Shown here piece by piece: positions 31 through 16,344 of a DNA stretch of 22,707 nucleotides (position 1 is its first letter; every line of letters begins with the position of its first letter). The stretch spans positions 1-22,707 of IMG/VR virus record IMGVR_UViG_3300021373_002673; one strand, given 5' to 3'. Position numbers and translations under genes: made by a program. The notes below the pieces were generated by a model. It ran no database searches and was not told the DNA's origin. It saw nothing but the letters and a program-made list of their open reading frames with translations. This DNA is from a virus.

Positions 31-1103
31 ATTAAATCCCTAAATTTAAATGGTGGTTTTATAAATCCTGTTTTTTCTAACTTCATTATTTTTCGAAGTA
101 GGCGTCTATGTTTTTGTGCATATTCTTCTTGCAAGAACGGTTCATAAAATTTATCTAGCAAGTTATCATATGTATGTTCTATTCTGTAGATCTTTCTGTC
201 GTTTGTTTGTCCTACACGTCGATGTAAAGTAATACTGTTATCAAATGTTACAAAGTCTCCATCTTGCTGATACCAATGATCGTATGTATACTTTTCGCTA
301 AACAGTTCATTAGCAATAGTGTCAAATATTTTTTGACTCTCAGCTTGCGTAGCACCTTGAATACTATGCATTGTTGGAGGTGAAAAATGCAATCCTTTGA
401 TACCGCCCGGACTTTGTATTACCATAGGCACTGGTGTATAATCTTCAGGACACATTTTAAATTTAAGCACTGCTTCTTCACTAGGCCTAAACGGAGGATC
501 AACATCTGCACTATCGTATTTGTGCAATATAATCATATCATTTAGTTCTGATCTAAAACTCTCTGAAACGCTTTCATAGTAGTCTGCGGTGTTTACAAAG
601 CCCGTAGCAGTGCCTACAACGTTCTCTGCTGCTAGTAAGCTAACAGCGTGTTCAAATACATAGTTTCCGCTACTGTGCATATGCCAGTCAAGTTCCTGGC
701 CGCCGTACAATCCGTACTCACCTTTTTCATCCTTAGATGAACTAAAGAAGTTAACACTCTTACCATTGTCTGTTTGAATACTTGCTTTGTAGAGGATGTC
801 TAATATATCTTTGTCTACATCTTCAACAAATGGCAAGTCTGCGTGTACTGCTAGTTGAAATGTGTCCCAATCTATATTGTACTTTTCGAGTAAAGAATAC
901 TTAAGGCCCCAAAACTCAGGACCCCACTTGTGTATTAAATTAGAAAACGTATCGACATTACAATTACTTCCTCGTACAATAGTAACTAAATTTTCTAAAT
1001 GCAGTTTACCTATTTCACGCCATTCTTCGTCAGAAACATTATTAACATCTAAGTCATCAATAATAATACCATAATTACCGACTGGAAATTTTGTTACCTT
1101 CAT
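27..1103 (-). CDS. TauD/TfdA-like Fe(II)/2OG-dependent oxygenase with HxH motif
   Basis: A 358-residue protein of the taurine dioxygenase (TauD/TfdA) type. Such enzymes use Fe(II), O2 and 2-oxoglutarate to hydroxylate or cleave small substrates in the cytoplasm. The metal-site region reads DWHMHSSG (residues 139-146), followed by a TauD-like LLAAENVVGTATGFVNT stretch. The distal part reads DGDFVTFDNSITLHRR (281-296), with H294 as the likely distal ligand and R304 or R307 as the likely 2OG-binding Arg. Known TauD enzymes have HxD (or HxE) as the first two ligands; here the acidic residue is His143. So either the iron site uses three His, or the protein is catalytically altered. Its ATG overlaps the stop of the B12 radical SAM gene by 4 bp, so the two are probably co-translated. 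Substrate unknown. Confidence 0.8.
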   Translation of the reverse strand: MKVTKFPVGNYGIIIDDLDVNNVSDEEWREIGKLHLENLVTIVRGSNCNVDTFSNLIHKWGPEFWGLKYSLLEKYNIDWDTFQLAVHADLPFVEDVDKDILDILYKASIQTDNGKSVNFFSSSKDEKGEYGLYGGQELDWHMHSSGNYVFEHAVSLLAAENVVGTATGFVNTADYYESVSESFRSELNDMIILHKYDSADVDPPFRPSEEAVLKFKMCPEDYTPVPMVIQSPGGIKGLHFSPPTMHSIQGATQAESQKIFDTIANELFSEKYTYDHWYQQDGDFVTFDNSITLHRRVGQTNDRKIYRIEHTYDNLLDKFYEPFLQEEYAQKHRRLLRKIMKLEKTGFIKPPFKFRDLI

Positions 1104-3025
1104 ATGCCAATTACCCTTCCTCTTAAAAATTCTGTTCGAGTGTAGGTGTGCATTTGTGTTGTTAAAAAGTCTACTAGATTTGTAATTGTATCGTTTTTGA
1201 AAGGACTAATTACATCGTTACTAAAACGTACATATTTGAACTTTTTAAATTCTGATGTATAACGTTTTTCTGCTGTAATAAACAAGTCGCTTTCTCTATC
1301 TATTTCAGCAGCAGTAAGATAAGGAAATTCTTCTAATAGCCATTTCTTAATATCGTCTCTACAATCTGCATAATCATAAAATAATTTAAGCATAAAAGAA
1401 GTTTCCATAGGTGCTACCACCTCACCAAATTTAATTGAAAGATTGTTTGCACTCTCATTATCGTCATCATAATACTCTGCAAATCTATTGTCAATCTTTT
1501 GAATATGATCCTGTAAAGATAATCCAGGATTTTTTCTTAAAAACTTTCTATAGAATAGTTTAATAAATTCACCGTAACCAATATTAGATTTTTTAAATAT
1601 CTTTTGCAGTACTTTTCTAAGTAATCCTGTAGTCCAAAATGCTCTTTGAGCACTGAACGCTATCCACATCTCTTTATATTCTTCTTTAGTATAACTAAAA
1701 CTTTCTACAACTACTTCACTTTTTCTAAGTGTAATATTATTAGGTTGCATATTGTTGTATTTTTTAACTGTTTTAATACCGTATCTTGCTCTAAAGTCTC
1801 TACTATAGCTAGGTGTTTCTGGAAGCATATGCCAATTATACAAACAAATATCCATATCGTGACTTGCATAAACGTCCATTTCGTGGTACCATCTATCAGG
1901 AGTAATGCCAGGAAGTCCGCTTATACACTCAGCATATGTGCTAAATCCGTAATTGTGTTTTAGGTGGTTTGCAAGATAAACGTGCTTTTCGAACGAGATA
2001 TCACTACGTGCAATATTTTGTAAAACATCTTGGTGTATACTTTGTATGCTTGCTTTATAACTTAGATCCCAAGTTAAATTATTCTGTGCGTCAATATCAA
2101 GAATCTGTTTAATATATTCTGTATGCTTATCAGTTTTTGCAAAGCCTCCAAAGTAAACGTGAAAAAATGCAGGGTTGGCTTGTTTTCTGTCTGCCATATA
2201 TTGAATAATGTCTATGTCTCTTTCTTTGAGTATACCAAAGTTAGCGTCACATAAGAAAATATATGCACATCCTGCTTCTTCTAGGACGTCAATATCTGCT
2301 TTTACGTGTTCTATAGACTTTTGTTTTACCTTAGAAGCAATTCCTCCACCCCAGTCACAAAATGCACAACTATAAGGACACCCTCTTGTAGTTTCTAGTT
2401 TACCGTTAACTACGTTACTTACTGGACTAGTAAATTGTCTAACTTCATTTGCACATTCTAAAAATGTTTCTCTTTGCATTGTGTAAGGGCTGTAGTCCCA
2501 AAAGAACTGCGATTTATTTCCACGCTTCTTACTTTTATGATAAAAACTTCTGCTCTTAGCCGGAAATACTACTTCAGTAACCGTATTCCAATCAATACTA
2601 TTGTCATCGTTTAAGTTGTCTAATAAATCTGCAAAGGTTATTTCGCCATATTCGCCGCCGTCAAGGCTTGCATCTAAGAACGGATATTGTTCAAACCAAT
2701 CTAGTTCGTGTTTAAAATATTGTTGCGGGCCTCCGCTTATAACTACACAATTCGGAAATGTTTCTTTTACCCACTTGGCTATTTTAAGACATTGTACATC
2801 ATTCCAAATATACATACTGATGCCGAATACATCGGGCTGTACTTCTAACAAATGTTCTTTAATCTTGTCGTCATCAAACTGATAATTTATTCGCGGATGT
2901 ATCCATTCCCATCTATCAGGATCTTTGCCCTTTAATTCGTAATAGCTTTTTGCACTAGCCCATAAAAGTGGTAAGTATACAGCCGAAGACGAATCCGGAT
3001 TGTATATAACAATTTTCTTTTTCAT
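1100..3025 (-). CDS. B12-binding-type radical SAM protein
   Basis: A 641-residue protein with the layout of class B (cobalamin-type) radical SAM enzymes. Residues about 1-140 look like a B12-binding Rossmann domain, with PDVFGISMYIWND (64-76) and VVISGGPQ (94-101). A radical SAM core follows, with the [4Fe-4S] motif C216-x3-C220-x2-C223 in RGCPYSCAFCDWGG. No DxHxxG cobalamin-ligating motif is visible, which is common in this class. The C-terminal third (from about 450) has no motif I recognise. Class B enzymes often methylate unactivated carbons, but many catalyse other chemistry and the substrate here is unknown. The ATG overlaps the stop of a 34-residue ORF (ATGA) and has no good Shine-Dalgarno sequence, so translation is probably coupled. 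It ends overlapping the TauD-like gene. Confidence 0.85.
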   Translation of the reverse strand: MKKKIVIYNPDSSSAVYLPLLWASAKSYYELKGKDPDRWEWIHPRINYQFDDDKIKEHLLEVQPDVFGISMYIWNDVQCLKIAKWVKETFPNCVVISGGPQQYFKHELDWFEQYPFLDASLDGGEYGEITFADLLDNLNDDNSIDWNTVTEVVFPAKSRSFYHKSKKRGNKSQFFWDYSPYTMQRETFLECANEVRQFTSPVSNVVNGKLETTRGCPYSCAFCDWGGGIASKVKQKSIEHVKADIDVLEEAGCAYIFLCDANFGILKERDIDIIQYMADRKQANPAFFHVYFGGFAKTDKHTEYIKQILDIDAQNNLTWDLSYKASIQSIHQDVLQNIARSDISFEKHVYLANHLKHNYGFSTYAECISGLPGITPDRWYHEMDVYASHDMDICLYNWHMLPETPSYSRDFRARYGIKTVKKYNNMQPNNITLRKSEVVVESFSYTKEEYKEMWIAFSAQRAFWTTGLLRKVLQKIFKKSNIGYGEFIKLFYRKFLRKNPGLSLQDHIQKIDNRFAEYYDDDNESANNLSIKFGEVVAPMETSFMLKLFYDYADCRDDIKKWLLEEFPYLTAAEIDRESDLFITAEKRYTSEFKKFKYVRFSNDVISPFKNDTITNLVDFLTTQMHTYTRTEFLRGRVIGI

Positions 3026-3126
3026 CTGTAAATGTGTGGCGATCTCTTTGACAACTCTTTAATCTTTTTGCGATACTTAAACCTAATATATACAGACCTT
3101 AGCCTTTCGAACAAATTTCTAATCAT
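3022..3126 (-). CDS. Small basic 34-residue peptide, unrecognised
   Basis: A short ORF fills the apparent gap between the SGNH-like gene and the B12 radical SAM gene. It starts at an ATG overlapping the upstream stop (ATGATTAG) and ends in a TGA overlapping the downstream ATG (ATGA). GAGAAGG lies seven bases before its start, a good ribosome binding site. The peptide begins MIRNLFERLRSVYIRFKYRK and ends KELSKRSPHIYR. It has about twelve Lys/Arg against two Glu and could form an amphipathic helix. It has no Cys. From memory, unverified, marine T4-like phages carry small basic proteins with a similar Lys/Arg-rich, aromatic C-terminus. It could be a small regulatory or nucleic-acid-binding protein or, more speculatively, a substrate of the adjacent radical SAM enzyme. 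The double overlap plus RBS is the main evidence that it is real. Confidence 0.65.
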   Translation of the reverse strand: MIRNLFERLRSVYIRFKYRKKIKELSKRSPHIYR

Positions 3127-3931
3127 CTTTTAACCTTCTCGCTAATTCTTCTGCAACAAATTCGTGAGCTTCTTGAGTAAAATGGAATCTAGGTAAATTG
3201 TGATTATCAAAAGGAATACACTCTTTAATAGAACTATCAAGGATATCATAATCTTTAACACGAGTTACAAAATGATTTCCGATTTTATTCATAAATTGCG
3301 GCTCTCTATCGTTAATAAAGTTACCTTGTTTATCTATGTCTGAATGTTCCCAATCTGCCCATTGGATAAGATTCCTGTCCGGCCAAAGAATGTGAACTTC
3401 AATACCTTTGGAACTAAGATAATCTGCTGCATAATACAAAGCAATGTGATCTTGTAGTGACTCAAAAGAATCATCAGCAAATTCAAAATAGTTTTCTTTA
3501 AGTAAATTATTTTGTCTTAGCGACAGTCTTTCGTCTTCTCCAGCAAGAGGATGTATTACAAAACTGCCTACAGTTTTTTTATCACCTTCTTCTTTGTATT
3601 TAATAAAAACACGATTGTGTGTTGTAAATTGTAGAATTACTACTGTATCAGTATACGAGTCTTGCTGAAAATGGGTAAATGCTCTTGCAGCAATTTCTTT
3701 ATTAGAAATTCCTTCTATACCCAAGTTCTCAAACTCGCATTTTAATTTTTTTGCTGTTAACGCAGGAAACGAATTGTTGTAGTTGTATGCATCAACATCA
3801 TCGCCTGGTAGAGTTTTAGCAGCTTTTCTTGCATCTTTAAAACTCATTGACGAATAGTTTGGTACAAACTTTTCTTCATACAATTCGTTGCCAGCGGTAA
3901 CACTGCACCCAAAGAAGTATAATTTTTTCAT
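3119..3931 (-). CDS. SGNH/GDSL-like hydrolase family protein
   Basis: A 270-residue protein beginning KKLYFFGCSVTAGNELYEE. The hydrophobic strand followed by GCS-x-TAG matches block I of SGNH hydrolases, with Ser10 as the candidate nucleophile. NLGIEGISN resembles the following Gly/Asn block. Near the C-terminus, FHFTQEAHEFVAEEL resembles block V, but the usual Asp of DxxH is not at its expected place, so activity is uncertain. SGNH proteins remove or transfer acyl groups, often on glycans or lipids. No signal peptide is evident. The ATG at 3931 has AAGGA nearby upstream and a late-type promoter octamer 28 bases upstream. It is the first gene of the minus-strand unit running to the window start, and it is divergent from the ANL/GNAT pair. 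Confidence 0.65.
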   Translation of the reverse strand: MKKLYFFGCSVTAGNELYEEKFVPNYSSMSFKDARKAAKTLPGDDVDAYNYNNSFPALTAKKLKCEFENLGIEGISNKEIAARAFTHFQQDSYTDTVVILQFTTHNRVFIKYKEEGDKKTVGSFVIHPLAGEDERLSLRQNNLLKENYFEFADDSFESLQDHIALYYAADYLSSKGIEVHILWPDRNLIQWADWEHSDIDKQGNFINDREPQFMNKIGNHFVTRVKDYDILDSSIKECIPFDNHNLPRFHFTQEAHEFVAEELARRLKDD

Positions 3932-3958
3932 AGTTTGTCCTTAATCTAAAAAGTCTGA

Positions 3959-3966
3959 TATTTATA
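3959..3966 (-). promoter_or_regulatory. T4-type late promoter octamer for the SGNH-led unit
   Basis: The minus strand reads TATAAATA, identical to the consensus T4 late promoter -10 element recognised by the phage late sigma factor. The element ends 28 bases before the first base of the ATG at 3931. That leaves a leader of roughly 20 bases carrying an AAGGA ribosome binding site. The match and spacing are seen; promoter activity is inferred. Confidence 0.6.
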
Positions 3967-4008
3967 TCGTACCTAAACCATAATAGTATACGTACATTAT
4001 ATTTAGCA

Positions 4009-4016
4009 GCTAAATA
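4009..4016 (+). promoter_or_regulatory. Late-promoter-like octamer for the ANL/GNAT pair
   Basis: The plus strand reads GCTAAATA, one base away from GATAAATA and two from the T4 late consensus. It ends 29 bases before the ATG at 4045, almost the same spacing as the two minus-strand octamers in this window. No convincing -35 element is visible, as expected for a T4-type late promoter. Activity is inferred from position. Confidence 0.45.
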
Positions 4017-4044
4017 TTTCAATAAACAGTAAAGTGAGCATATT

Positions 4045-4704
4045 ATGAAGGTCACCGTATTAACATCAGGCAGCACAGATACACCCAAACACATATTACA
4101 TAATAATATGCGACCCCATATAGAAAGATCTATCAAGGAAATTGGACTAACTGCTGACGATAGAGTGTTAGATGTATTTCCGGCAAATGTAATTGCACAT
4201 TATACTGTAACAGCAATGCCTGCTTTACTTTCTGGAGCACATTTGGTATCAGCAGCATTTGATCCTTATACGTATATAACATTTTTCAATCAAGTACAAC
4301 CTACTTATATTTCTCTTATTCCTAGACATTGGGAGATATTATCGAAAACTAAAGGCTGGAAAGATTTTGATATGAGCTGTGTTAGGTATATGGTAACTGG
4401 AAGTAGCAAAATTTCTCAGCAAATGATAGATGACTTTCGAGAGCGTGGCGTTAAAACTGTTGCCAATTGGTATGGTATGACCGAATTTCCGCCGCCTGTA
4501 ATGATCGGCTATAATTCTACGGTATTTGATCTAAATACTATTGATAGCAATAGTCACCACGTAATGTTTCATCCTATCACGGCAACTTCAAATCTAGCTG
4601 AATGTATTATAAATGGTCGCTCAACTGGTGATATTTTTAATATGGATACAAAAGAATTTCACTCTAGGAGAGTAGAAGCAAATGGTAATACCTGGAAAAC
4701 CTAA
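4045..4704 (+). CDS. Truncated adenylate-forming (ANL superfamily) domain protein
   Basis: A 219-residue protein with core motifs of AMP-forming acyl-CoA synthetases and adenylation domains. The P-loop is TSGSTDTPKH (7-16, family TSGSTGxPKG). MVTGSSKIS (116-124) sits where the family has its GGAPLS-like segment. The YGxTE motif is YGMTEF (143-148), and STGDIF (193-198) matches the (R)TGD ATP-ribose-binding Asp. The P-loop begins almost at residue 1, and the protein stops soon after TGD. The N-terminal lobe and the C-terminal subdomain with its catalytic Lys, present in the usual 500-residue enzymes, are therefore absent. An in-frame TAA at 4030-4032 rules out a 5' extension. It may be a minimal nucleotide-binding or acyl-adenylate enzyme, or a decayed one; intact motifs argue against simple decay. 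It overlaps the GNAT-like gene by 23 bp, suggesting activation and transfer by the pair. Confidence 0.75.
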   Translation: MKVTVLTSGSTDTPKHILHNNMRPHIERSIKEIGLTADDRVLDVFPANVIAHYTVTAMPALLSGAHLVSAAFDPYTYITFFNQVQPTYISLIPRHWEILSKTKGWKDFDMSCVRYMVTGSSKISQQMIDDFRERGVKTVANWYGMTEFPPPVMIGYNSTVFDLNTIDSNSHHVMFHPITATSNLAECIINGRSTGDIFNMDTKEFHSRRVEANGNTWKT

Positions 4705-5260
4705 TTTAGAACTACGATTACTAACACAAGACGATCGTCCTGCATTAGAAAAGTTTTTTGCAGCGTGTGAATCTTTAGGTCTAGAAAACAATAAAAATGC
4801 TGATGCAATTAAGTTAGATAAAATGCATATGCCTTATGGACAATATTTTATTGGTTGGGATCATAACAAAAACTGTATTTGGAATCTTGCTGGCATACAT
4901 CATTTACCCGAGTTAGGTAGCAACAAGTGGCGTGTGCTATTTCGAGGAGCCCAACTACCTGGCTATGCATTAGGCGTTGGCAAGGATTTTTTACGAGTGA
5001 GCTATCATTGGAGATACTTTCTTCCAATGCAAATAAAGTTTATTAAAGAAAATTATCCAGATGCAGAGTTTGTTATTAGTACGAATATTAAAAATGCAAG
5101 TGCAGGTAAAAGTGATCAGCTAAACAAAAAACTAATGCCCCTGCTAGTAAACAGAGGCATTGTAAGTCTTTATAAAGAAAATTTTGAGCTGTTTTATACC
5201 AAACAGAATGTTTGGCTAATTAACCAACCTAATCTTATTCAAGCTCTAGTTCAACATTAA
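4682..5260 (+). CDS. GNAT-like acyltransferase
   Basis: A 192-residue protein whose N-terminus, LELRLLTQDDRPALEKFFAA (residues 9-28), is typical of the first strand and helix of GNAT N-acetyltransferases. The middle has beta-rich segments, and the C-terminal part (KKLMPLLVNRGIVSLYKE) looks like the late helix-strand of that fold. The acetyl-CoA-binding Q/RxxGxG/A motif is not clear, so the assignment rests on overall pattern. The start ATG at 4682 lies inside the end of the ANL-like gene, with AGGAGAG upstream, so the two are probably translated together. A GNAT after an acyl-adenylating domain suggests an acyl transfer pathway, but no acyl carrier is visible. Its last 26 bp overlap the end of the convergent propeller gene. 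Confidence 0.5.
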   Translation: MVIPGKPNLELRLLTQDDRPALEKFFAACESLGLENNKNADAIKLDKMHMPYGQYFIGWDHNKNCIWNLAGIHHLPELGSNKWRVLFRGAQLPGYALGVGKDFLRVSYHWRYFLPMQIKFIKENYPDAEFVISTNIKNASAGKSDQLNKKLMPLLVNRGIVSLYKENFELFYTKQNVWLINQPNLIQALVQH

Positions 5261-6479
5261 CTGAATGTGCTGTGCCGTTTGGCAAGTTAATAACAGTTAA
5301 ATTAGAATCAAGTTTCATACTTTCGTTAATATCAAATCTATATGGCACCATTAATACAGTGTCATTGCTTTCATTGATCGGACCGTATGTTACATTGTTT
5401 GTTGGTAGTTCAACACCTTCGATAACTTGATTGTTTTCTAACTTGTAAACTTTGTTAGGAGCATCGTGCTGTGCTTCATTGCTTACACTAGGAAACAAAT
5501 ATACAGAATTATTACTAATTACTGGCTTTGCGCCTAATGGTAAGTCTGTTTTCACAGATTCTACTGTTTGATTAGCAACATCAAATTTAACTAGTTCATT
5601 GCCTTTGTCCCAACAAGTGTGTGTATAAAATACACCGTCACTCATAGTTCCATACTTGAATCCCATCATACCTGTAGTCGATTCAAATGCTGAAGGTACA
5701 TATTCAACTGCGTCAACTTTTTCGCCATCATAAATCCAAAAATGCATTAACTCTGTGTCGCCCATTACTAACGGAACGCCAACGCCTTTACCTTCGTGTG
5801 TAAATGTTTTGTAGAAAGAACTTTCTACAGGTGCTTCTACAAACTTGTGTTCATTTGTTTCTAAATTAAGAACTAGCAATTTGTTTGTCTTGTTACCATA
5901 TGGAAAAAATGCTACTTCGTTTAATTCTGGAATATGTGTACACCAAATACTTGCAGTATCATCAGGTACATCGTGTGCAACCATTTGCTTAGTTGCTGTA
6001 TCAAATACAATAATTACTCCACTGTTTAATGGAGGATATACAATTTTAGTGCCTACTGCAATAGGACGTCCAAAGTTAAAGTGTCCACAAAAAGTTTTAG
6101 GAGTCTCTGTTCCGTGAATACTAACTGCTTTTTCTTCAATCATTTCAACTTCGTTGGTATCTAAGTTAACTGCTGCCATTCGTACAACACTATCAACGTG
6201 TTTTTTCTGAGTACGCATTACATAAGCAACATTGTCAACTACTTCTACACAACGATATCTGTCCCCTGGTTCGCTGTACTTATGGAAATCAATAAATTCT
6301 GTTTGGTTAGTTTCTGTATTAACTCTTAAAAGCCCTGCCTTAGCAGCAGCATCTTTGTTAATATCTCTATGTTGTTCACCTTCGGTTCTAACCTTTCCGC
6401 TAGTGATAACGCTTAGGTACTCATTACTATTAACGTAATAAGGATCGTCAAGTACCTGTGAAAAAAATGTAGTGGACAT
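5235..6479 (-). CDS. Beta-propeller protein (PYG-repeat family), probably late-expressed
   Basis: A 414-residue protein made of repeated short beta blocks of the form 'strand, YPP or FPYG or VPYR loop, strand, LNLET or FDTATK turn'. Examples are IVYPPLNSGVIIVFD, VAFFPYGNKTNKLLVLNLET and VLMVPYRFDINES. This resembles a Kelch/WD-like propeller and two further propellers in this window (13974-15194 and 15184-16344). No catalytic motif or signal peptide is visible. It has the strongest expression signals in the window: a GGAGG ribosome binding site five bases before the ATG and a late-promoter octamer 28 bases upstream. That would suit a virion component or host-recognition protein, but this is inference. 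Its 3' end overlaps the end of the convergent GNAT-like gene by 26 bp. Confidence 0.7.
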   Translation of the reverse strand: MSTTFFSQVLDDPYYVNSNEYLSVITSGKVRTEGEQHRDINKDAAAKAGLLRVNTETNQTEFIDFHKYSEPGDRYRCVEVVDNVAYVMRTQKKHVDSVVRMAAVNLDTNEVEMIEEKAVSIHGTETPKTFCGHFNFGRPIAVGTKIVYPPLNSGVIIVFDTATKQMVAHDVPDDTASIWCTHIPELNEVAFFPYGNKTNKLLVLNLETNEHKFVEAPVESSFYKTFTHEGKGVGVPLVMGDTELMHFWIYDGEKVDAVEYVPSAFESTTGMMGFKYGTMSDGVFYTHTCWDKGNELVKFDVANQTVESVKTDLPLGAKPVISNNSVYLFPSVSNEAQHDAPNKVYKLENNQVIEGVELPTNNVTYGPINESNDTVLMVPYRFDINESMKLDSNLTVINLPNGTAHSVNVELELE

Positions 6480-6505: not shown

Positions 6506-7204
6506 TTATTTATCTATGATTCCTTGCACTTTTCTAATTTCCGAAATGGCGTCAAAGTCAATGCGAGATAAAATATGTACTCTTTCATCGTCTCCTAAAT
6601 TTTCAGTTCCGTGTGGTACTAGAGGATTAATAATGTAAATTTTTCCCACTTCCATTTGGTACTGTCTTTCTCCATTTTCGCCGAACAAAAATTTTGCATC
6701 TTTGTTAGTGTGCAAGGGTATATGTAACTTTTTTAGTTCACTGTCTTTGTGAATGTTTACTCTTAGGCCCGGTGGATGTCTTGCAATAAGCACTTGTCGT
6801 AATGCACTTTCTGAAAGAGTGTCAAACAGTTTTTGCATTAAACCAAACATATAACGCTTTTGTGGTTTAGCATCATAATAAAATTCTGTAGTTAATGTTT
6901 CGTCGTCATACTTTTTTAATTCAGGATACATTTCTATATTTGCTTGTGTTTTACTAGGGCAAGGAATATCTCTTTCAACTGGCCAACTAACTGTCCAAGC
7001 ACCTACGTTACCTAAGTAATTTCCCATACGTCCTTCTTTTTTAAATGTTTCGTATATTTCTGGACGAATGTAGTCTTTTGAATTGAAATCAAAACAGAAG
7101 TCAGCAAGATCAGTAGTAAGCGTCTTATAATAATCGTTTACTAAATCTTTGTCAATTTGAAGATCTAATTCTATTACGTCCCAATCTGTATCATTAATAT
7201 TCAT
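6506..7204 (-). CDS. Asp/Asn beta-hydroxylase-like 2OG oxygenase (paralog 1)
   Basis: A 232-residue protein of the aspartyl/asparaginyl beta-hydroxylase type, Fe(II)/2OG oxygenases with a double-stranded beta-helix. The facial triad is H152-x-D154 (NIHKDSE) and H198 (LVPHGTENLG), and R208 (DERVHIL), ten residues after the distal His, should bind 2OG. RHPPGLRVN precedes the first His. The N-terminus holds WTVSWPVERDIPCPS, a stretch shared with the paralog at 9691-10344. It is the last gene of the eight-gene unit starting at 12520, and its ATG overlaps the stop of paralog 2 by 4 bp. The family's known members hydroxylate Asp/Asn in proteins, but small-molecule substrates are possible for short phage members. 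Confidence 0.82.
   Translation of the reverse strand: MNINDTDWDVIELDLQIDKDLVNDYYKTLTTDLADFCFDFNSKDYIRPEIYETFKKEGRMGNYLGNVGAWTVSWPVERDIPCPSKTQANIEMYPELKKYDDETLTTEFYYDAKPQKRYMFGLMQKLFDTLSESALRQVLIARHPPGLRVNIHKDSELKKLHIPLHTNKDAKFLFGENGERQYQMEVGKIYIINPLVPHGTENLGDDERVHILSRIDFDAISEIRKVQGIIDK
6507..6514 (-). promoter_or_regulatory. T4-type late promoter octamer for the propeller gene
   Basis: The minus strand reads GATAAATA, one mismatch to the T4 late consensus. It ends 28 bases before the first base of the ATG at 6479, the same distance as the octamer at 3959-3966. It overlaps the last codons of the upstream oxygenase gene. This would let the propeller be transcribed late, independently of the eight-gene unit behind it. 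Activity is inferred. Confidence 0.55.
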
Positions 7205-7782
7205 AGTGTTTTCATTTCTATAATTTCATTTACTTTATCTGCAGGTATTTTAAAGAACAAATGTGTCCTATAACTATCGCCTTCATTTGACGTACCGTGT
7301 AATGCATTAGTATTTACAAGATACATTTTACCAGGTTGTAATACAAACTGCTGATCTTCAAAGTTAAAGTATGCATTATCATTTGTGCTTATAGGAATGT
7401 GTACTTTTACATATGTGTCACTGTCTGTATGTAAATTTATTTTTGTCCCTGGAGGATGTGCAGCAATACTAAGTTGTCGAGAGTAAGGCAACTTAGTGCG
7501 TATTTTATTTGCAAATCCAAATACTAAGGCAGTATCTCTATAATCATCTGTACCATTTTTAGCAACATTATAAGGAGGACAAGGAATATTTAAATCATCA
7601 AGATTACTTTGTATACCCCAACCATAGACTCCATCTATAGAATGTTTTTGATATCCGCTTGTTTCTTCTTTTAGTTCACTTGTCCATTTTAAATGATTAT
7701 AGTTGTTTTCAACATTTTCAAAATACTGTTCTAACTCTGCAAATGAAAAATTTATATCAAGTTCTTTTACTAAGAAATCCAT
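7201..7782 (-). CDS. Asp/Asn beta-hydroxylase-like 2OG oxygenase (paralog 2)
   Basis: A 193-residue member of the same family, shorter at the N-terminus. The iron site is H118-x-D120 (NLHTDSD) with distal H162 (ALHGTSNEG), and R172 (YRTHLFF) is the 2OG-binding Arg. AAHPPGTKIN before the triad and VHIPISTNDNAYFNF after it closely match paralog 1 (ARHPPGLRVN, LHIPLHTNKDAKFLF), so these are duplicated genes. The core is complete and probably active. It overlaps the upstream phosphatase gene by 13 bp and the downstream paralog by 4 bp, so all three are likely made together. Confidence 0.82.
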   Translation of the reverse strand: MDFLVKELDINFSFAELEQYFENVENNYNHLKWTSELKEETSGYQKHSIDGVYGWGIQSNLDDLNIPCPPYNVAKNGTDDYRDTALVFGFANKIRTKLPYSRQLSIAAHPPGTKINLHTDSDTYVKVHIPISTNDNAYFNFEDQQFVLQPGKMYLVNTNALHGTSNEGDSYRTHLFFKIPADKVNEIIEMKTL

Positions 7783-8231
7783 TGCTTCTCCATTAATTCT
7801 TTTATACGGTAATATCCAGAATCATCTGCACCGTCATCGTATATTTCGTTTGAAAGTATTGTTTCGTCTATAAAGTCTGCAACTGCCTTGCTGCGTGATT
7901 CACCTTTGAAACAGTGTATATGAACTAAACTATTGAAAGGAATATCTCTAATAAACTCAACTATATTTTTTGCTTGTTCTTCGGTTATTGCTATTGCGTT
8001 AAAATATGCCTGTATGTCAGGACCCCATTTCTTAATATCTTTAGGTACATCATCAAATGTTTCTCTGATAACATTAGGATGAAGTTGTTTAAAATACGGA
8101 ACTGCGCCATCACCGCCACTAGAGTCAATACAAATAAAATATTCGTCGATACCTTCGACTGTGTTGTCGTTAATTAATCGATCTTGCATTTCTGTAACAA
8201 AATTATTTTTGCTGTAAATCTTTAATCTCAT
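7770..8231 (-). CDS. Dual-specificity/tyrosine phosphatase-like protein
   Basis: A protein of about 153 residues with the Cys-dependent phosphatase signature HCX5R, read as VHIHCFKGESRSK. C107 is the candidate nucleophile and R113 the phosphate-binding Arg, followed by the usual Ser. A candidate general acid is one of the Asp pair in ETFDDVPKD, about 45 residues earlier. I chose the ATG at 8231. The frame is open to a non-ATG start at 8288, but that would overlap the neighbouring oxygenase gene by 86 bp instead of 29 bp and adds nothing family-like. Such enzymes dephosphorylate Tyr/Ser/Thr, phosphoinositides or small phosphates. Lying between two hydroxylase paralogs, it could remove a phosphate in the same pathway or counter the kinase-like protein at 13547-13993; both are inference. 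Confidence 0.72.
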   Translation of the reverse strand: MRLKIYSKNNFVTEMQDRLINDNTVEGIDEYFICIDSSGGDGAVPYFKQLHPNVIRETFDDVPKDIKKWGPDIQAYFNAIAITEEQAKNIVEFIRDIPFNSLVHIHCFKGESRSKAVADFIDETILSNEIYDDGADDSGYYRIKELMEKQWIS

Positions 8232-8859
8232 CTGTCCAAACTTTTCCGTATAAGTGTATTCTATTTGTAGTACCTTTATTTTCAACACTGTGCGGCAATG
8301 TAGTATTTACTAGGTATGCCCACCCAGGTTCCATATGTACTTCTTCGTCTTCAATAATCCAATTACTATCTTTATTTGTGTATATAGGAATATGCACTCT
8401 AATCTTATCAGGCGAATCCTGATGCGTAATTAATTTAGTTCCTGGTGTGTGTATTGTAACTAACCACTTCTTGCTGCGTACTGGTAACCCTTGTACAATA
8501 TCTAAACCGTATCCTGAAAAGCATTTTCTAGGATTAAGTTCATCGTTATCATTGTCTCTATATTCTGGCTTTGCTTGTCCTTGTTCAAAAGGCTTTGGCC
8601 CTGGTTCATCACTGTTCCAACACAGTGTATAATATGCAGTGTCGTCCATTAGTCGATGACCAGTTATACCTTCAGGGTCAACAATAGGTTCTTTCCATAT
8701 ATGCTGATTGTCGCCTACAATAAATTTCCAATCATTGTATTTGTGTTCTAAGTTATGAAACCATTCTTGTATTTTATCAACATTAACTGGAAACCAGCGT
8801 TTATACTTCCAACCTAAATTAATAGGGGTATGTTTTTCAATATATCTTTTAGTTTTCAT
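8203..8859 (-). CDS. Asp/Asn beta-hydroxylase-like 2OG oxygenase (paralog 3)
   Basis: A protein of about 218 residues. Numbered from the ATG used here, the iron site is H146-x-D148 (ITHQDSP) with H190 (TLPHSVENKG), and R200 (NRIHLYG) completes the 2OG site. TIHTPGTKLI and VHIPIYTNKDSNWII repeat the pattern of the other paralogs, and the N-terminal IQEWFHNLEHKYNDWKF matches the helix found in paralogs 2 and 4. I start it at the ATG at 8859, which has AGAGGTG upstream; an in-frame GTG at 8865 lies inside that ribosome binding site. An insert around residues 84-112, rich in Asp, Glu and Pro, is specific to this copy. It overlaps the SGNH-like gene by 11 bp. Confidence 0.82.
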   Translation of the reverse strand: MKTKRYIEKHTPINLGWKYKRWFPVNVDKIQEWFHNLEHKYNDWKFIVGDNQHIWKEPIVDPEGITGHRLMDDTAYYTLCWNSDEPGPKPFEQGQAKPEYRDNDNDELNPRKCFSGYGLDIVQGLPVRSKKWLVTIHTPGTKLITHQDSPDKIRVHIPIYTNKDSNWIIEDEEVHMEPGWAYLVNTTLPHSVENKGTTNRIHLYGKVWTDEIKDLQQK

Positions 8860-9694
8860 AATCACCTCTTACTAAATGATCAACTATTTTATTAAACATA
8901 TTTTCCTTATAAAAAAACTTTTCGTCAAACTTTTTAAAACATAATTGCTCGTCTATCCAATCTTTATCTGAAATGTTACTATCACAAATTATATGTTTGC
9001 TCCATCCATTTTCTGTGTCTTCTAAAATTCCAGAGTTAACACCATCTATTATTTTAGAAATTAGTACGTTATGGTTGTCAAAACATAAATGATTAGCTCT
9101 TAAATCCATAGCACCATTAAATACTTTTTTAAATTTTTTATTTGCATATTCTTCTTGGCAAACTTCCATTAGTGCTTTTTTAAATATTAATAAGTTATCA
9201 AAGTTACCTTGTAGTGCAGGAAACAGTTCATCAAATGCCGGAATAATTATTGTTTTAGTTCCTAACTCTTTAGACTTAACGTCTAGCCATCTTAACCAAC
9301 ATTCTAAGAACCATAAAAAATGATCTTCGTTATGCAAATATGTAAAATAATCAATGTACGCAGACTTTGATTTTTTTATTTTGTTGGCAGTGATATCATC
9401 TGTGTTGTCTAATATATTAGGAGCTTCTGCGTGAGCAAATTGAGAAAAGTAAGGTGCATCTGGAAAGAAATAAGTTCGATCAGGACTAGATAATACTACA
9501 ATAGACATATCTCCTGGTTTCATATCTTTTTCTAGATCCTTCCAGTTTTTAAAATGCTGTAATATTCCTTGACCAGGAAACCCTGTGTTTACTAATTCTA
9601 GATTAAAATGTTTAGCAAGTTGTCTTGGCCAAACTCTAGAATCGTCGGGACTCCACGCAAAGCTACAACCAAAAATATACAGATTGTTTTTCAT
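8849..9694 (-). CDS. SGNH/GDSL-like hydrolase family protein (second copy)
   Basis: A 281-residue protein starting KNNLYIFGCSFAWSPDDSR. This is the same 'strand plus GCS' opening as the protein at 3119-3931, so Ser11 is the candidate nucleophile of an SGNH fold. NTGFPGQGILQHF gives a plausible Gly block, and SIVVLSSPDRTYF a following strand. The C-terminal part contains FDNHNV, but a standard DxxH dyad is not clear. It could be an esterase or acyltransferase acting on a glycan, or an inactive relative. Its ATG overlaps the stop of paralog 4 by 4 bp, and its end overlaps paralog 3 by 11 bp, so it belongs to the hydroxylase operon. Confidence 0.6.
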   Translation of the reverse strand: MKNNLYIFGCSFAWSPDDSRVWPRQLAKHFNLELVNTGFPGQGILQHFKNWKDLEKDMKPGDMSIVVLSSPDRTYFFPDAPYFSQFAHAEAPNILDNTDDITANKIKKSKSAYIDYFTYLHNEDHFLWFLECWLRWLDVKSKELGTKTIIIPAFDELFPALQGNFDNLLIFKKALMEVCQEEYANKKFKKVFNGAMDLRANHLCFDNHNVLISKIIDGVNSGILEDTENGWSKHIICDSNISDKDWIDEQLCFKKFDEKFFYKENMFNKIVDHLVRGDYEN

Positions 9695-10344
9695 TTTAAT
9701 AACCTTAACATTTTATCTATACTTGGATCTGAGATAATATGGGCTCTAGAAGGACCGTTGTTAATAGTTGCGTGTGGGATTGTTGCATTTATAATGTATG
9801 CATTACCTGCTTCCATAGTATATTCTCTATTTAAATTATCGCCAAAAAGAAACTTAGATTCGTTATTAGATATAATAGGTATATGCAATCTAAGTCCTTG
9901 GTCATCATCAACGTGTTTTTTTATTTCAGCACCGGTGTTGTGAACTGTAATTCTAGAACGACAAAATATATCCTCACCTAACTTTCTACAAATATCTTTA
10001 AAATATCCAAACTTGTATCTTTCTTGTATTTTGAAAGGAATATCAACTTTTAATTCAGGAAATAATTCATCATTAGCAGCAAATGTTGGCGGAATAGGAA
10101 TATTCTTTTCCGTAGGCCAGTCTATAGTCCAACTGCTGATGTCACCTCTTAGCGCATCGTTGTATCCATTACTATTTTTGTATTCTTCACTTAAAACGTG
10201 TCCTATAGAAAAATCAAATTTTAAGTCTTGGTATTTTTCGCATACCGTTTCATACCACGCAACTAATTTGTCTACATCAAAAGATATACCGCAATTAATT
10301 ACGTCCCATTCTTTACTATGCAAATACTCTTTAGTGTAAATCAT
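9691..10344 (-). CDS. Asp/Asn beta-hydroxylase-like 2OG oxygenase (paralog 4)
   Basis: A 217-residue family member. The ligands are H144-x-D146 (KKHVDDDQG) and H191 (TIPHATINNG), with R200 (SRAHII) as the 2OG-binding residue. WTIDWPTEKNIPIPPTFAAN parallels the WTVSWPVERDIPCPS stretch of paralog 1, and LHIPIISNNESKFLFGDN parallels its LHIPLHTNKDAKFLFGEN, so these two are each other's closest relatives here by eye. The C-terminus ends soon after the catalytic core. The stop overlaps the next ATG by 4 bp, and the start overlaps the 490-residue gene by 4 bp. Confidence 0.82.
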   Translation of the reverse strand: MIYTKEYLHSKEWDVINCGISFDVDKLVAWYETVCEKYQDLKFDFSIGHVLSEEYKNSNGYNDALRGDISSWTIDWPTEKNIPIPPTFAANDELFPELKVDIPFKIQERYKFGYFKDICRKLGEDIFCRSRITVHNTGAEIKKHVDDDQGLRLHIPIISNNESKFLFGDNLNREYTMEAGNAYIINATIPHATINNGPSRAHIISDPSIDKMLRLLK

Positions 10345-12520: not shown

Positions 12521-12582
12521 TTACCACCTCTTTTTATGCTATATACAGTAGTTATCACGAATTTTTAAGGTTATTGTTAGGA
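12521..12582. promoter_or_regulatory. Divergent spacer, probable promoters
   Basis: About 60 bp separate two divergent units, so promoters for both should lie here. It holds an AT-rich core (tatgctatatacagta, 12535-12550) that could supply a -10 hexamer on either strand, but no TATAAATA-type octamer at the 28-29 base spacing seen elsewhere. These units may therefore be controlled differently from the late-type ones. No convincing -35 was found. Confidence 0.35.
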
Positions 12583-13560
12583 ATGAATTGCCAGTTTTTA
12601 GATCATCAGGTTTGCATTAGAGCAGACGGACAGTATAGATTGTGCTGTATAAGTCTAGAAACTAATAATCAAGAAAATATTAAAACACACACTATAGAAG
12701 ATTGGTTAAACAGTAACACGCATAAAGATGCCGTAGAAAGTTTTGCAAAGGGTGTTTGGCCAGATGCGTGTAGAACTTGTGCAAATAAAGAAGCACAAGG
12801 ATTTCCTAGCAAAAGATCACAGGCTGATTTAGGACCTGGATTAAGTCATTTAGATTTACGATTTGGCAATAGTTGTAATTTAAAATGTGTAAGTTGTTGG
12901 GAAGGTTCTAGCAGCAGTATTGCAGAAGAAGCAATAGAAATGCAAAAACAAGGAATTATTCCTGTTAATAATGTATTAGAAATTCCTAACTTTAATTGGG
13001 CAAGCGAAACAGCGATTGAACAATTAGTCAAGTATCCACTAAAAGAAGTTTACCTAACCGGCGGTGAACCTATGATGGTTAAACACTTACCTATGCTATT
13101 AGAACGTTTAGATAGCAATGTAGCAATACGATTTAATACTAACGGTACAATTTACAATCCTAAACTAGAAAAATTATTAAAACGCTTCGATGTAGTTAAT
13201 ATGGCGATTAGTATCGATGCTATCGGAAAACGTGCAGAATATATTAGATACGGAAGTAATTGGAATACTGTTGAAACAAACTTTAACAAGTACAAAGATT
13301 ATTGTAGAGTGAGTATCACACCTACAGTCAGTGTACTAAACGAGCTGTATATGGACGAGGTATACAACTGGGCAAAACAAAATAACGTAGAGGTTCACTT
13401 AAACATTTTAGAAAATCCTAATTACTTAAATATTAATAAAGCACAAGACCCAGAACAACGAAAAAAGTTTGTAGATGTTATCACAAGACTTGATAGCTTT
13501 AGAAATATTAGCATAAAGGACTACTTGCCCGAAGTAGCACAAGACTATGGAATTAATTAA
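12583..13560 (+). CDS. Twitch-domain radical SAM protein
   Basis: A 325-residue radical SAM protein. The [4Fe-4S] motif is C98-x3-C102-x2-C105 in LRFGNSCNLKCVSCWEG, followed by LTGGEPMM for SAM binding. A Cys-rich N-terminal module (C3, C11, C21, C22, C63, C66) precedes the core, with QVCIRADGQYRLCC and CRTCANKE. This looks like a SPASM/twitch-type auxiliary-cluster domain placed at the N-terminus. Later SIDAIGKRAEYIRYGSNW matches the protein at 17864-19159 (SIDAVGEKNDYIRYPSNW), so the two are paralogs. Twitch/SPASM enzymes often modify peptides or aminoglycoside-like sugars; the substrate here is unknown. I start it at the ATG 12583; an in-frame TTG at 12574 is less likely. It overlaps the kinase-like gene by 14 bp. 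Confidence 0.85.
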   Translation: MNCQFLDHQVCIRADGQYRLCCISLETNNQENIKTHTIEDWLNSNTHKDAVESFAKGVWPDACRTCANKEAQGFPSKRSQADLGPGLSHLDLRFGNSCNLKCVSCWEGSSSSIAEEAIEMQKQGIIPVNNVLEIPNFNWASETAIEQLVKYPLKEVYLTGGEPMMVKHLPMLLERLDSNVAIRFNTNGTIYNPKLEKLLKRFDVVNMAISIDAIGKRAEYIRYGSNWNTVETNFNKYKDYCRVSITPTVSVLNELYMDEVYNWAKQNNVEVHLNILENPNYLNINKAQDPEQRKKFVDVITRLDSFRNISIKDYLPEVAQDYGIN

Positions 13561-13993
13561 AGAAAATATACAAAAGAAACGTGCTGTATTTTTAAAAGAT
13601 AGTGACACCATTAGAAAGTATTGGTATGACAAAGATTCTAAGTGGATGCAACAACACGCCGAGATACTAGATAAAGTACAACCGGGCTATGTTAAATATG
13701 TAGGTGAAAACTTTATCGACTTTACTAGATACGTAGGACTACCTGCAAGTAAATTAAAACATACTCCACAGTTCCGTGATGAGGTATGTAAATTTTGTAT
13801 AGATCAAATAAACAACACACTACCGTATGCACACGGTGATTGGGTATTAAGTAATATCATAGTTGACGGTGATACTATGCGTATGGTTGATTGGGATAAT
13901 GTTGGAATTTACGATTCTAAATCTATACACACAAAATTAAAAGCAGATTTGCAATCAGCATTTGGAGAGTTATTTGACCCCGCAAGCATTTAG
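13547..13993 (+). CDS. Minimal APH/choline-kinase-like phosphotransferase
   Basis: A 148-residue protein with the catalytic signature of the aminoglycoside-phosphotransferase/choline-kinase branch of the protein kinase fold. YAHGDWVLSNIIVDGD (94-109) gives catalytic D98 and metal-binding N103 (HGDxxxxN). MVDWDNVGIYD (113-123) gives the DFG-equivalent D115. Upstream, the RAVFLKDSDTIRKYWYD strand pair could form a reduced ATP-binding lobe, with K24 as the nearest candidate for the ATP-contacting Lys. Family members usually have 250 to 350 residues, so this is very short, yet the key residues are intact. It probably phosphorylates a small molecule or sugar rather than conferring resistance. It is embedded between a radical SAM gene and a propeller gene with overlaps on both sides. 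Confidence 0.72.
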   Translation: MELIKENIQKKRAVFLKDSDTIRKYWYDKDSKWMQQHAEILDKVQPGYVKYVGENFIDFTRYVGLPASKLKHTPQFRDEVCKFCIDQINNTLPYAHGDWVLSNIIVDGDTMRMVDWDNVGIYDSKSIHTKLKADLQSAFGELFDPASI

Positions 13994-15194
13994 TTACCCT
14001 ACTGTAGGCCCTAATGGACTAATTTACATTCCGCCTTATGGACTAAACGAAAGTTTAGATTATATGCTAGTGGTTAATCCTAAAACATATGTTATTGAAA
14101 AGATTAAACTAGATGTAGATAAGTCCACAGAAAAGTGGCAAAAAGGTATTGTACACCGTAACTTCATTTATTTCTTACCTTACAACGAGAAAAATATTTT
14201 AGTATTAGATACCAACGATAATAGTATACAATACATTGAGGTTCCTATAGACGGCCAAGGCAAATACATTCAAGGACACATATATAAAAATAAAATATAT
14301 GCACTACCTTACGGTGAACACTCTCCATACAGTTACGCATTAATATTTGATATGGATGCAAAATGGGTTAAGCAAATTGAATTGCGTATCCTACCAGACG
14401 ATGAAAAGAAGTGGCACCAAACACAACTCGTAGGAAATACTATTTACGGCCTACCTAGAGGAGAAAACTTAGACAAGCATTTTAACTATGCTATTGAGTT
14501 TGATTGCGATATGGAAACATACTCACTCACCGACTTATCTAATCAATGGATAGACTACGATAAACAGAGGCACTGCAATAAAAAATTTACAACACTTGCA
14601 AAAGTAAACGAAAAACTTTGGTCGCCGCCTTATAGCGAACACGAAGATTTTGATATTCTTGCAAAGTACAACAATGGTTGGACATTTGAAAAAACTGGTA
14701 TTAAGGGCACTAGCAGAAAGTATTATTCACATACGGTTGCAAGTAACAACAAGATATATTTCCCTCCGGCAGGACACGAAGAAGACTGGAGTGAGATGCT
14801 AATTGTTGATGCTATCAACGACACGTGGTACACAAAAGACTTAGGTATAGGTAAAGAAAGTAAAAAGTATTTTGCAGGAGCAGAAAATAGTCAAGGAAAA
14901 ATATATTATATTCCTAGAGGCGGTTGTGTTTGTGAGCCAGAAGAAACTTGGAAAAGCCAAGGCGACCTAGCAGAAATATTAGTGATTGACACAGCAGACG
15001 ATTCTAGTTATACTATAGATGTCGGTGAATACTTTACTGATAGCACAACTATTGAAAAATATAACCAGTGTGTTATTGTTAACGATATCATATATGCGTT
15101 CCCATACGGCGAAAGTGAAAGTTTTCAAACTGTCCTAATTTTTGATACTATTAAAGAAGAAGTTGTTACAACAATAGACTTAAATGACATATAA
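13974..15194 (+). CDS. Beta-propeller protein with eight PYGE-type repeats
   Basis: A protein of about 406 residues built from about eight repeats of 42-62 residues, each with a '[LIF]P[PYR]xGE-like' loop between strands. Examples are IYIPPYGLNES, YFLPYNEKN, YALPYGEHSPY, YGLPRGENLD, WSPPYSEHEDF, YFPPAGHEED, YYIPRGGCVCE and YAFPYGESES. Each is followed by a hydrophobic strand ending in Asp (ALIFD, AIEFD, MLIVD, VLIFD). This fits a multi-bladed Kelch-like propeller and is clearly paralogous to the next gene. No enzyme motif, signal peptide or membrane segment is visible. I place the start at the TTG 13974 because GGAGAG lies before it; another TTG at 13962 lacks such a site. It could be a binding or structural protein, or the substrate of nearby modifying enzymes. 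It overlaps both neighbours. Confidence 0.75.
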   Translation: MTPQAFSYPTVGPNGLIYIPPYGLNESLDYMLVVNPKTYVIEKIKLDVDKSTEKWQKGIVHRNFIYFLPYNEKNILVLDTNDNSIQYIEVPIDGQGKYIQGHIYKNKIYALPYGEHSPYSYALIFDMDAKWVKQIELRILPDDEKKWHQTQLVGNTIYGLPRGENLDKHFNYAIEFDCDMETYSLTDLSNQWIDYDKQRHCNKKFTTLAKVNEKLWSPPYSEHEDFDILAKYNNGWTFEKTGIKGTSRKYYSHTVASNNKIYFPPAGHEEDWSEMLIVDAINDTWYTKDLGIGKESKKYFAGAENSQGKIYYIPRGGCVCEPEETWKSQGDLAEILVIDTADDSSYTIDVGEYFTDSTTIEKYNQCVIVNDIIYAFPYGESESFQTVLIFDTIKEEVVTTIDLNDI

Positions 15195-16344
15195 AGCATT
15201 CGAAGACTGGTATAAAGAAGCAGAAATTAAGCATTTAATTTTGCAAGATATAAATGGTGTGTTAGTATCGCCACCGTTTGCTACTGAGTTGTGCAAAGAC
15301 TATACTTGGTTTAAGTACATTGTCAAAGGTGATACAAAATTAAATTTAGATGTATTTTTAGATCTGCCGCCGGCAACAAGTAAAACTAACACTTGTGAAT
15401 TAATCGGTGGAAACATATGGATGGTGCCTTACGGCATTTATGATGATTTAAACTTTGTCGTAGAACTTGATCTTAACAAAATTAAATTACATAAACTATC
15501 ATTCGGCGGCAAAGGACAATTTTATAACCTAGCTTCTAACGGAGATGAAGGGTTTAGTTTTCCATTAGGTTATCAAGATACTAACATCGGACTACACATC
15601 AAGAACAGTAAAGTAACATCATATCCATTACCTACAAAAGGTAAAAAACTACATATGGGTACTGTTTATTGTAATGGCAGTTTTTGGAGTATGCCTAGAG
15701 GTGATGATCCTGGATACAACACATTACTAGAATTTAACGGTAAAGAAATTGTTACACACGAAATCAAAGGTATTGACGATTCAATTACACGCAAATATAC
15801 AGACATCATTGTTAAAGACAATACGCTTTATGCATTACCGTTTGGAGAAACTGCTGGTCTAAATGAAATTGTAGAATTTAACACAGACACTAAAACTTAC
15901 AAGTTGCATACAATCGATGGACACGACTTTGCTAAAAAATACAACACAGGTGTTTTAGTAGACGACACAATCATAGCATTGCCCTACGGTGAAGATTATA
16001 ATGACGATAGCAATTGGGGGCTTGTGTTTGACACAAAAACTAAGCAAAGTTATCAGTTCGATATTGGATTAAAGTTTGGTGGCAAATATAGATTTAGAAC
16101 AGGCATAGAATACAACAGTTCAGCATATTTTTTTCCGGCAGGCACACCTTCTTGTCCAATACTAAAAATATCAAAACAAGGTGATATAGAAAAAGAATTG
16201 TATATGAAAGATTGGCTTCTAGGAAGACCTATTGTTTATAATAATATGATGTGTGTAATAGGATACAATTTAAAAAATAAAGACCATAAGATTTTTCAGT
16301 TTGACGCAGACTTAAATTTGCTTTCGCAAATAGATATCACTTAA
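15184..16344 (+). CDS. Beta-propeller protein with seven PYGE-type repeats
   Basis: A 386-residue protein of the same repeat family as the preceding gene. Loops occur at about residues 29, 81, 126, 170, 219, 267 and 318 (LVSPPFATE, MVPYGIYDD, FSFPLGYQD, WSMPRGDDPGY, ALPFGETAGL, ALPYGEDYND, FFPAGTPSC). Each is followed by strands such as NEIVEFNTDTK and WGLVFDTKTK. The regular spacing of 44-52 residues indicates a propeller of about seven blades. Function is unknown. The ATG at 15184 overlaps the stop of the previous propeller by 11 bp. The gene's last 33 bp overlap the end of the convergent radical SAM gene. Confidence 0.75.
   Translation: MTYKAFEDWYKEAEIKHLILQDINGVLVSPPFATELCKDYTWFKYIVKGDTKLNLDVFLDLPPATSKTNTCELIGGNIWMVPYGIYDDLNFVVELDLNKIKLHKLSFGGKGQFYNLASNGDEGFSFPLGYQDTNIGLHIKNSKVTSYPLPTKGKKLHMGTVYCNGSFWSMPRGDDPGYNTLLEFNGKEIVTHEIKGIDDSITRKYTDIIVKDNTLYALPFGETAGLNEIVEFNTDTKTYKLHTIDGHDFAKKYNTGVLVDDTIIALPYGEDYNDDSNWGLVFDTKTKQSYQFDIGLKFGGKYRFRTGIEYNSSAYFFPAGTPSCPILKISKQGDIEKELYMKDWLLGRPIVYNNMMCVIGYNLKNKDHKIFQFDADLNLLSQIDIT

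Follow-up and report, generated by a model that had tools for sequence, protein, structure and literature searches.

A virus-specific family of minimal ANL proteins paired with a GNAT-fold protein: a candidate two-protein module for acyl-AMP formation and acyl transfer

The mini-ANL gene and its features

The window, which is the whole stretch of DNA analysed here, is a virus record of 22.7 kb. At 4045..4704 on the plus strand, it carries an ATG-initiated gene for a 219-aa protein, referred to here as mini-ANL. This protein is composed of the second (flavodoxin-like) subdomain of the ANL N-domain and the strands that follow it as far as the A8 hinge; it possesses neither the first subdomain nor the C-terminal domain. 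An in-frame TAA stop codon at 4030-4032 (+), already pointed out in an earlier note made from the sequence, lies four codons 5' of the start, and the open frame comprises 223 codons. The Pfam AMP-binding profile (PF00501) matches residues 6-154 over profile positions 169-330 of 384. With an E-value of 7e-18 and a score of 65 bits, where the cut-off is 29.9, the match is far beyond chance, and the same profile is matched by 11 of 11 mini-ANL relatives. The closest PDB sequences are feruloyl-CoA synthetase, CysF, and 4-coumarate-CoA ligases.

All of the conserved motifs are on the plus strand. The P-loop (A3; TSGSTDTPK, of the general form TSGSTxxPK) begins after six N-terminal residues and occupies residues 7-15 (4063..4089). 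It is followed by an A4-like region (PANVIAHY, residues 46-53, 4180..4203), the A5 motif (NWYGMTE, residues 141-147, 4465..4485), the A7 motif (TGD, residues 194-196, 4624..4632), and Arg208 (4666..4668), the counterpart of the arginine in the A8 'GR'. A C-terminal Thr-Trp-Lys (TWK, residues 216-218, 4690..4698) precedes one last residue. The earlier note described an ANL core with intact nucleotide motifs, and the ORF, the P-loop, NWYGMTE, and TGD are all found where it placed them. The protein does not end just after TGD, as was also claimed; 23 further residues are present and take in Arg208 and TWK.

Late-promoter-like and SD-like signals had been noted in front of the gene. The late-promoter-like box (CTAAATAT, 4010..4017, +) is present, but it is not conserved across the family. 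A TAAATA box occurs 5' of mini-ANL in 15 of 61 relatives (~5% are expected for random stretches) and SD-like motifs occur in 12 of 61, so neither signal is a family feature and the argument drawn from them is of little weight. A conserved late promoter was therefore rejected. In many relatives, the mini-ANL gene comes straight after another gene.

Conservation of the mini-ANL family

A first IMG/VR scan yielded 13 relatives of mini-ANL. An alignment-based IMG/VR scan yielded 98, of which 80 were kept, resulting in 62 distinct viral proteins when that of the window is included (subfamily 1). All family sequences come from metagenomic viral contigs, which belong to uncultured aquatic viruses that infect bacteria. 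The 62 proteins have the same two ends and are essentially 210-225 aa in length; two have longer open frames, in one case through start-codon choice. The P-loop is at about residue 5-8, with a small start-codon ambiguity, and the C-terminal end is TWK followed by 1-4 residues. A DNA-pattern scan for NWYGMTE revealed extra members. The complete frames among them are all of the same architecture, with a P-loop-to-NWYG distance of 136, and the architecture holds for all ANL-type viral NWYGMTE loci that are sufficiently complete to judge. One family member, UniProt A0A6J5L770 (214 aa, uncultured Caudovirales phage), is 58% identical and is labelled 'AMP-dependent synthetase/ligase'. This name derives from the domain only; no functional description of the protein was found, nor was a paper on phage mini-ANL found in the open-access literature searched.

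The residues invariant across the 62 sequences are T7, S8, G9, T11, P14, and K15 in the P-loop; P46, N48, and A51 in the A4-like region, where H52 is present in 57; N141-E147 (NWYGMTE); P150 and P151; T194, D196, F198, and R208; and T216, W217, and K218. The ANL nucleotide-binding residues (P-loop, YGxTE, TGD, and the A8 Arg) are thus all present and are invariant or nearly so. Pairwise dN/dS in 51 close pairs has a median of 0.166 and a maximum of 0.41, which indicates that the intact mini-ANL protein is under purifying selection. TWK is retained in L007, L010, L011, and L012, loci that have no overlapping partner GNAT gene 3' of mini-ANL, so its conservation is unlikely to be a side effect of gene overlap.

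The most diverged loci of the GNAT partner, described below, led to a second subfamily of mini-ANLs that are ~27% identical to subfamily 1. An alignment-based scan for subfamily 2 identified 50 loci, and these together with two seeds represent 38 distinct proteins, 35 of them complete. The complete proteins are 224-247 aa in length, have the P-loop at residue 12-24, and end 0-6 residues beyond the A8 arginine of YYxGR(K). The TGD Asp, the A8 Arg, and an A4 His-Ala-Gly-Gly are each found in 35 of 35. The P-loop is altered in some members (PSK, PRR), and there is no invariant lysine at the C-terminus. A GNAT gene is present in the DNA stretch examined for 32 of the 38 loci, usually upstream. The tree has long branches and does not separate one origin of the mini architecture from two. 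Because two distant subfamilies share similar boundaries and the same partner, the sequences point to an architecture that is old and functional.

The earlier note had taken the gene for a real mini-domain and not a recent break, and had proposed a search for phage homologues of the same length. The 62 same-boundary homologues, the purifying selection, and a divergent second subfamily with nearly the same ends strongly support this. A truncation or assembly artefact is refuted by the shared ends, selection, and motifs.

Predicted structure and relation to known ANL enzymes

A single-chain AlphaFold2 model of mini-ANL built from 11 sequences has a pLDDT of 84 and a pTM of 0.82, and its last six residues, including TWK, are disordered. 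When compared to ANL structures, as the earlier note had suggested, the model fits from the P-loop onward with Z scores of up to 18.6 (IdnL7, 206 residues, 2.8 A); the match to EntE residues 184-437 has a Z of 17.9 (210 aligned, 2.8 A). The nucleotide-binding region of mini-ANL has a predicted ANL fold. In CysF, Thr290, Asp363, and Arg378 bind AMP, and His192 is the proposed general base (PMC11427300). Thr146, Asp196, and Arg208 of mini-ANL are the counterparts of the three AMP-binding residues. CysF His192 aligns near H52 (57 of 62), which may serve as a lead only.

The acyl-CoA synthetases and amide-bond synthetases of the ANL type (FadD13, feruloyl-CoA synthetase 8WEV, and CysF 8RA0) share with mini-ANL the sequence from the P-loop to the A8 hinge, the predicted fold, and the A3, A5, A7, and A8-Arg residues. 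Compared to these enzymes, mini-ANL is missing ~150-180 N-terminal residues and the ~110-residue C-domain bearing the A10 lysine, and its A4 region is rearranged (PANTIAHY). The first ANL subdomain has also been lost in the PaaK family, as a case of 'domain atrophy' (PMC4432964). PaaK retains its C-terminal domain, whereas the phage mini-ANL starts almost at the P-loop and has lost both ends; the PaaK structure 9s3l is a weak sequence match. Subdomain-swap engineering of NRPS adenylation domains has used their flavodoxin-like subdomain, which is roughly equivalent to mini-ANL in the part of the ANL fold that it covers. That subdomain sits inside a full A domain, whereas mini-ANL is a natural stand-alone protein.

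Missing domains and full-length relatives

The C-terminal domain with the A10 lysine (PF13193) is absent from mini-ANL and had no match in 12 phage contigs of relatives, 31-356 kb in length, in a search whose controls were positive in 12 of 14 genomes. The first N-terminal subdomain (the ~150 residues N-terminal to the P-loop in full ANL enzymes) is absent from both subfamilies. A split enzyme with its C-domain elsewhere in the phage was rejected, as none was found in the 12 contigs; PF00501 is poor at detecting a lone first subdomain. In 11 of these contigs, the single PF00501 match is mini-ANL itself. The exception is the L074 contig, where a separate, full-length ANL gene of 468 aa (2654-4060) lies upstream of mini-ANL. 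The scan used found no IMG/VR relative of this protein, and an L074-type full-length phage ancestor of mini-ANL was rejected.

The case that would make mini-ANL a remnant, close relatives encoding the full 500-residue enzyme, was raised in the earlier note. No such relatives were found, and the nearest cellular relatives are full length but distant. A scan of 84,980 genomes with family peptide patterns found no cellular mini-ANL. Of its 11 exact NWYGMTE matches, four are PaaK/CapK-like proteins and the rest lie in other frames. The four PaaK/CapK-like proteins are long, with open frames of 404-805 codons, three of which are cut at the contig end. By eye, the cellular PaaK/CapK-like proteins of L206, L207, and L211, with exact NWYGMTE, have an apparent aminotransferase-like C-terminal fusion. 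In 299 Pseudomonadota genomes, every ANL match is full length (494-857 codons). The cellular absence of mini-ANL is that seen in peptide-pattern scans and samples of one phylum.

Among 50,697 phage records, no isolate with a family member was found, and searches for the partner GNAT and for subfamily 2 were likewise negative. The matches in these records are ANL fragments that are 21-31% identical, mostly in unannotated or bacterial-looking records. T4-like phages are found among the relatives (gp23 in 6 of 9 contigs). Membership of a defence system was rejected, as there was no PADLOC match.

The GNAT-fold partner

The partner gene (4682..5260, +) encodes a 192-aa protein and overlaps the mini-ANL stop by 23 nt. 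An AGGAGAG at 4666-4672 (+) lies 5' of its ATG. The partner has no Pfam or NCBIfam match. Its single-chain model (pLDDT 94) has a predicted GNAT fold, matching PA3270 with a Z of 12.9 (165 aligned, 3.4 A), and the GNAT structural matches include PatZ and Streptomyces lividans Pat, one entry being complexed with the Acs C-domain. The predicted fold is shared with the GNAT acyltransferases PA3270, FeeM, SpeG, and Pat. The partner differs from these in the missing family matches and in the motif A acyl-CoA pyrophosphate loop, [QR]xxGx[GA], which is present in only 8 of 51 partners. The partner of the window is counted among the eight through QLPGYA, possibly by chance. By this pattern, the partners mostly appear to have no canonical CoA loop.

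In about 50 of the 62 subfamily-1 loci, the partner and mini-ANL are same-strand neighbours. The mini-ANL stop falls within the longest open frame of the partner in 49 of 50 loci; the commonest overlap is 29 nt. Where the two genes are not adjacent, a diverged GNAT copy is found elsewhere on most contigs; it was not seen in four viral contigs (26, 17, 11, and 5 kb), which are possibly fragments. In the reverse search, mini-ANL lies within 3 kb in all 68 viral loci found with the partner GNAT. The partner has no match in 398 Pseudomonadota genomes, with the same profile being positive in phage contigs. The pairing is tight in both directions and obligate-looking, which supports a role for the GNAT-like neighbour, as guessed in the earlier note.

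In L281 (2305-3546 and 4942-5781), an uncharacterised domain of ~240 aa is joined to the front of the GNAT partner. L282 has a stand-alone copy of this domain. A class IV aminotransferase gene lies 5' of mini-ANL in L281.

Proposed mechanism and alternatives

ANL enzymes are a very common class that activates organic acids with ATP. In the textbook view, they catalyse with two domains, and central roles are given to the lysine of the C-domain and to rotation of the domains. The mini-ANL family challenges the view of how much of an ANL enzyme is required. With both ends gone and the nucleotide site invariant, it makes a minimal adenylating unit directly testable. The proposal to which we give an even chance is that this virus-specific minimal ANL family and its GNAT gene form a two-protein module that makes acyl-AMP and transfers the acyl group. 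Adenylation (catalysis), complex formation, and acyl transfer, along with a substrate and an acceptor, are what we infer; the boundaries, motif conservation, purifying selection, predicted folds, pairing, and absence of a C-domain gene in the contigs searched were computed.

Mini-ANL would bind Mg-ATP and a carboxylic acid through the intact A3/A5/A7/A8 residues and form the acyl-adenylate (acyl-AMP). The invariant C-terminal Lys218, the partner, or both would replace the lost C-domain lysine, and a dimer or the GNAT partner would cover the surface bared by loss of the first subdomain. The GNAT-fold protein, a clear candidate for the missing half of the ANL, would then transfer the acyl group, with an amine or a hydroxyl as acceptor, and probably finishes the reaction. 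Mini-ANL would work in a complex, most likely with the GNAT protein, because FadD23 lacking only its C-domain is almost inactive (PMC9989471), while PaaK-type ligases that lack the first subdomain restore the lost surface by a homodimer interface (PMC4432964). Counting against the two-protein module are the missing A10 catalytic lysine, the near inactivity of FadD23 once its C-domain is deleted, the four contigs in which no GNAT was seen, and, in subfamily 2, the altered P-loops and a C-terminal lysine that is not invariant. To our knowledge, no activity is known for any ANL protein this small.

It is possible, though doubtful, that the half-size ANL, lacking the catalytic C-domain, makes the acyl-adenylate and that the GNAT-fold protein, without using CoA, accepts the acyl group straight from AMP. 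If true, the work of adenylate-forming enzymes would here be divided in a new way, and mini-ANL would be the smallest ANL catalyst that we know of. An active mini-ANL/GNAT pair would be a compact acylation tool. It would also hint at the targets that aquatic phages modify via halogenase, oxygenase, and radical-SAM clusters beside a tail-fibre-like gene.

Mini-ANL may instead adenylate alone, perhaps as a PaaK-like homodimer, with the GNAT being an ordinary CoA-dependent acyltransferase of a later pathway step; the two would then be linked by pathway and not by a shared intermediate. PaaK-type ligases without the first subdomain do dimerise, the halogenase, 2-oxoglutarate oxygenase, and SGNH-like neighbours resemble a biosynthetic or modification cluster, and the GNAT is kilobases distant in some loci. 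We consider this unlikely, since the overlap in 49 of 50 loci and the reverse co-occurrence in 68 of 68 suggest a tighter link, and most partners have no recognisable CoA loop.

The absence of both parts required in normal ANL catalysis, as well as the near loss of activity in FadD23 upon C-domain deletion (PMC9989471), would also suit a nucleotide-binding protein that is not an enzyme, its ATP/AMP site acting as a sensor or as a structural subunit of the GNAT protein. This is quite unlikely in our judgement. The strongest constraint on mini-ANL includes the substrate-pocket region (P46, N48, A51, H52, P150, and P151) in addition to the nucleotide site, and a mere sensor has no need of the acid-binding side.

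Regulation of mini-ANL by the GNAT through acylation of Lys218, as Pat does on acetyl-CoA synthetase, would draw on the position of this invariant, exposed, C-terminal residue in subfamily 1 and on the presence of PatZ and S. lividans Pat among the structural matches. It is very improbable: the target of Pat is the A10 lysine, a C-domain residue that mini-ANL lacks, and subfamily 2 has no invariant terminal lysine, yet keeps the same partner. The short length alone and the 468-aa ANL of the L074 contig could be cited for the view that mini-ANL is what remains of a full-length enzyme after truncation. This is hardly credible given identical ends in 62 distinct proteins and near-identical ends in 35 more, purifying selection, intact motifs, and no full-length close relative.

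Gene neighbourhood

A tail-fibre-like gene is found upstream of mini-ANL in 47 of 62 loci, one example having an Mtd_N domain. Asp/Arg-hydroxylase-like 2-oxoglutarate enzymes are encoded around mini-ANL in 47 loci and tryptophan-halogenase-like proteins in 35 (PF04820, E 2e-67 in L281). Other neighbours are SGNH-like proteins and radical-SAM enzymes of the B12 type. Cyanomyoviruses are known to carry a tryptophan halogenase gene (PMC2984593). This neighbourhood suggests that the island modifies a small molecule, a glycan, or a virion protein.

Several ORFs at 6506-10344 (-) of the window encode an expanded set of the Asp/Arg-hydroxylase-like 2-oxoglutarate enzymes. Over the 47 loci, 195 such genes cluster together, ~four per locus, which is an unusual paralogue expansion. 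The product of 1100-3025 (-) is a B12-binding radical-SAM protein that is nearest to the KedN5 C-methyltransferase family (E 6e-46), with a score far below the cut-off of that family, and related genes lie near mini-ANL in 8 of 62 loci. Several CxxxCxxC-type proteins, radical-SAM/SPASM-looking by eye, are encoded within 10 kb on both strands at 12574-21722.

The 148-aa product of 13547-13993 (+) has an HGDWVLSNI...DWDN that, by eye, is like the catalytic core of the aminoglycoside-phosphotransferase/choline-kinase type, and it may be a further half-enzyme that stands alone in this island. An HCFKGESRS motif in the product of 7770-8288 (-) is like that of a cysteine phosphatase (HCx5R), and a similar VHCxAGxCRSG protein is encoded near mini-ANL in L010, L012, and L279. 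Long, repetitive, beta-propeller-looking proteins are encoded at 5235-6479 (-), 13962-15194 (+), and 15184-16344 (+). The type found at 5235-6479 recurs near mini-ANL in 13 of 62 loci.
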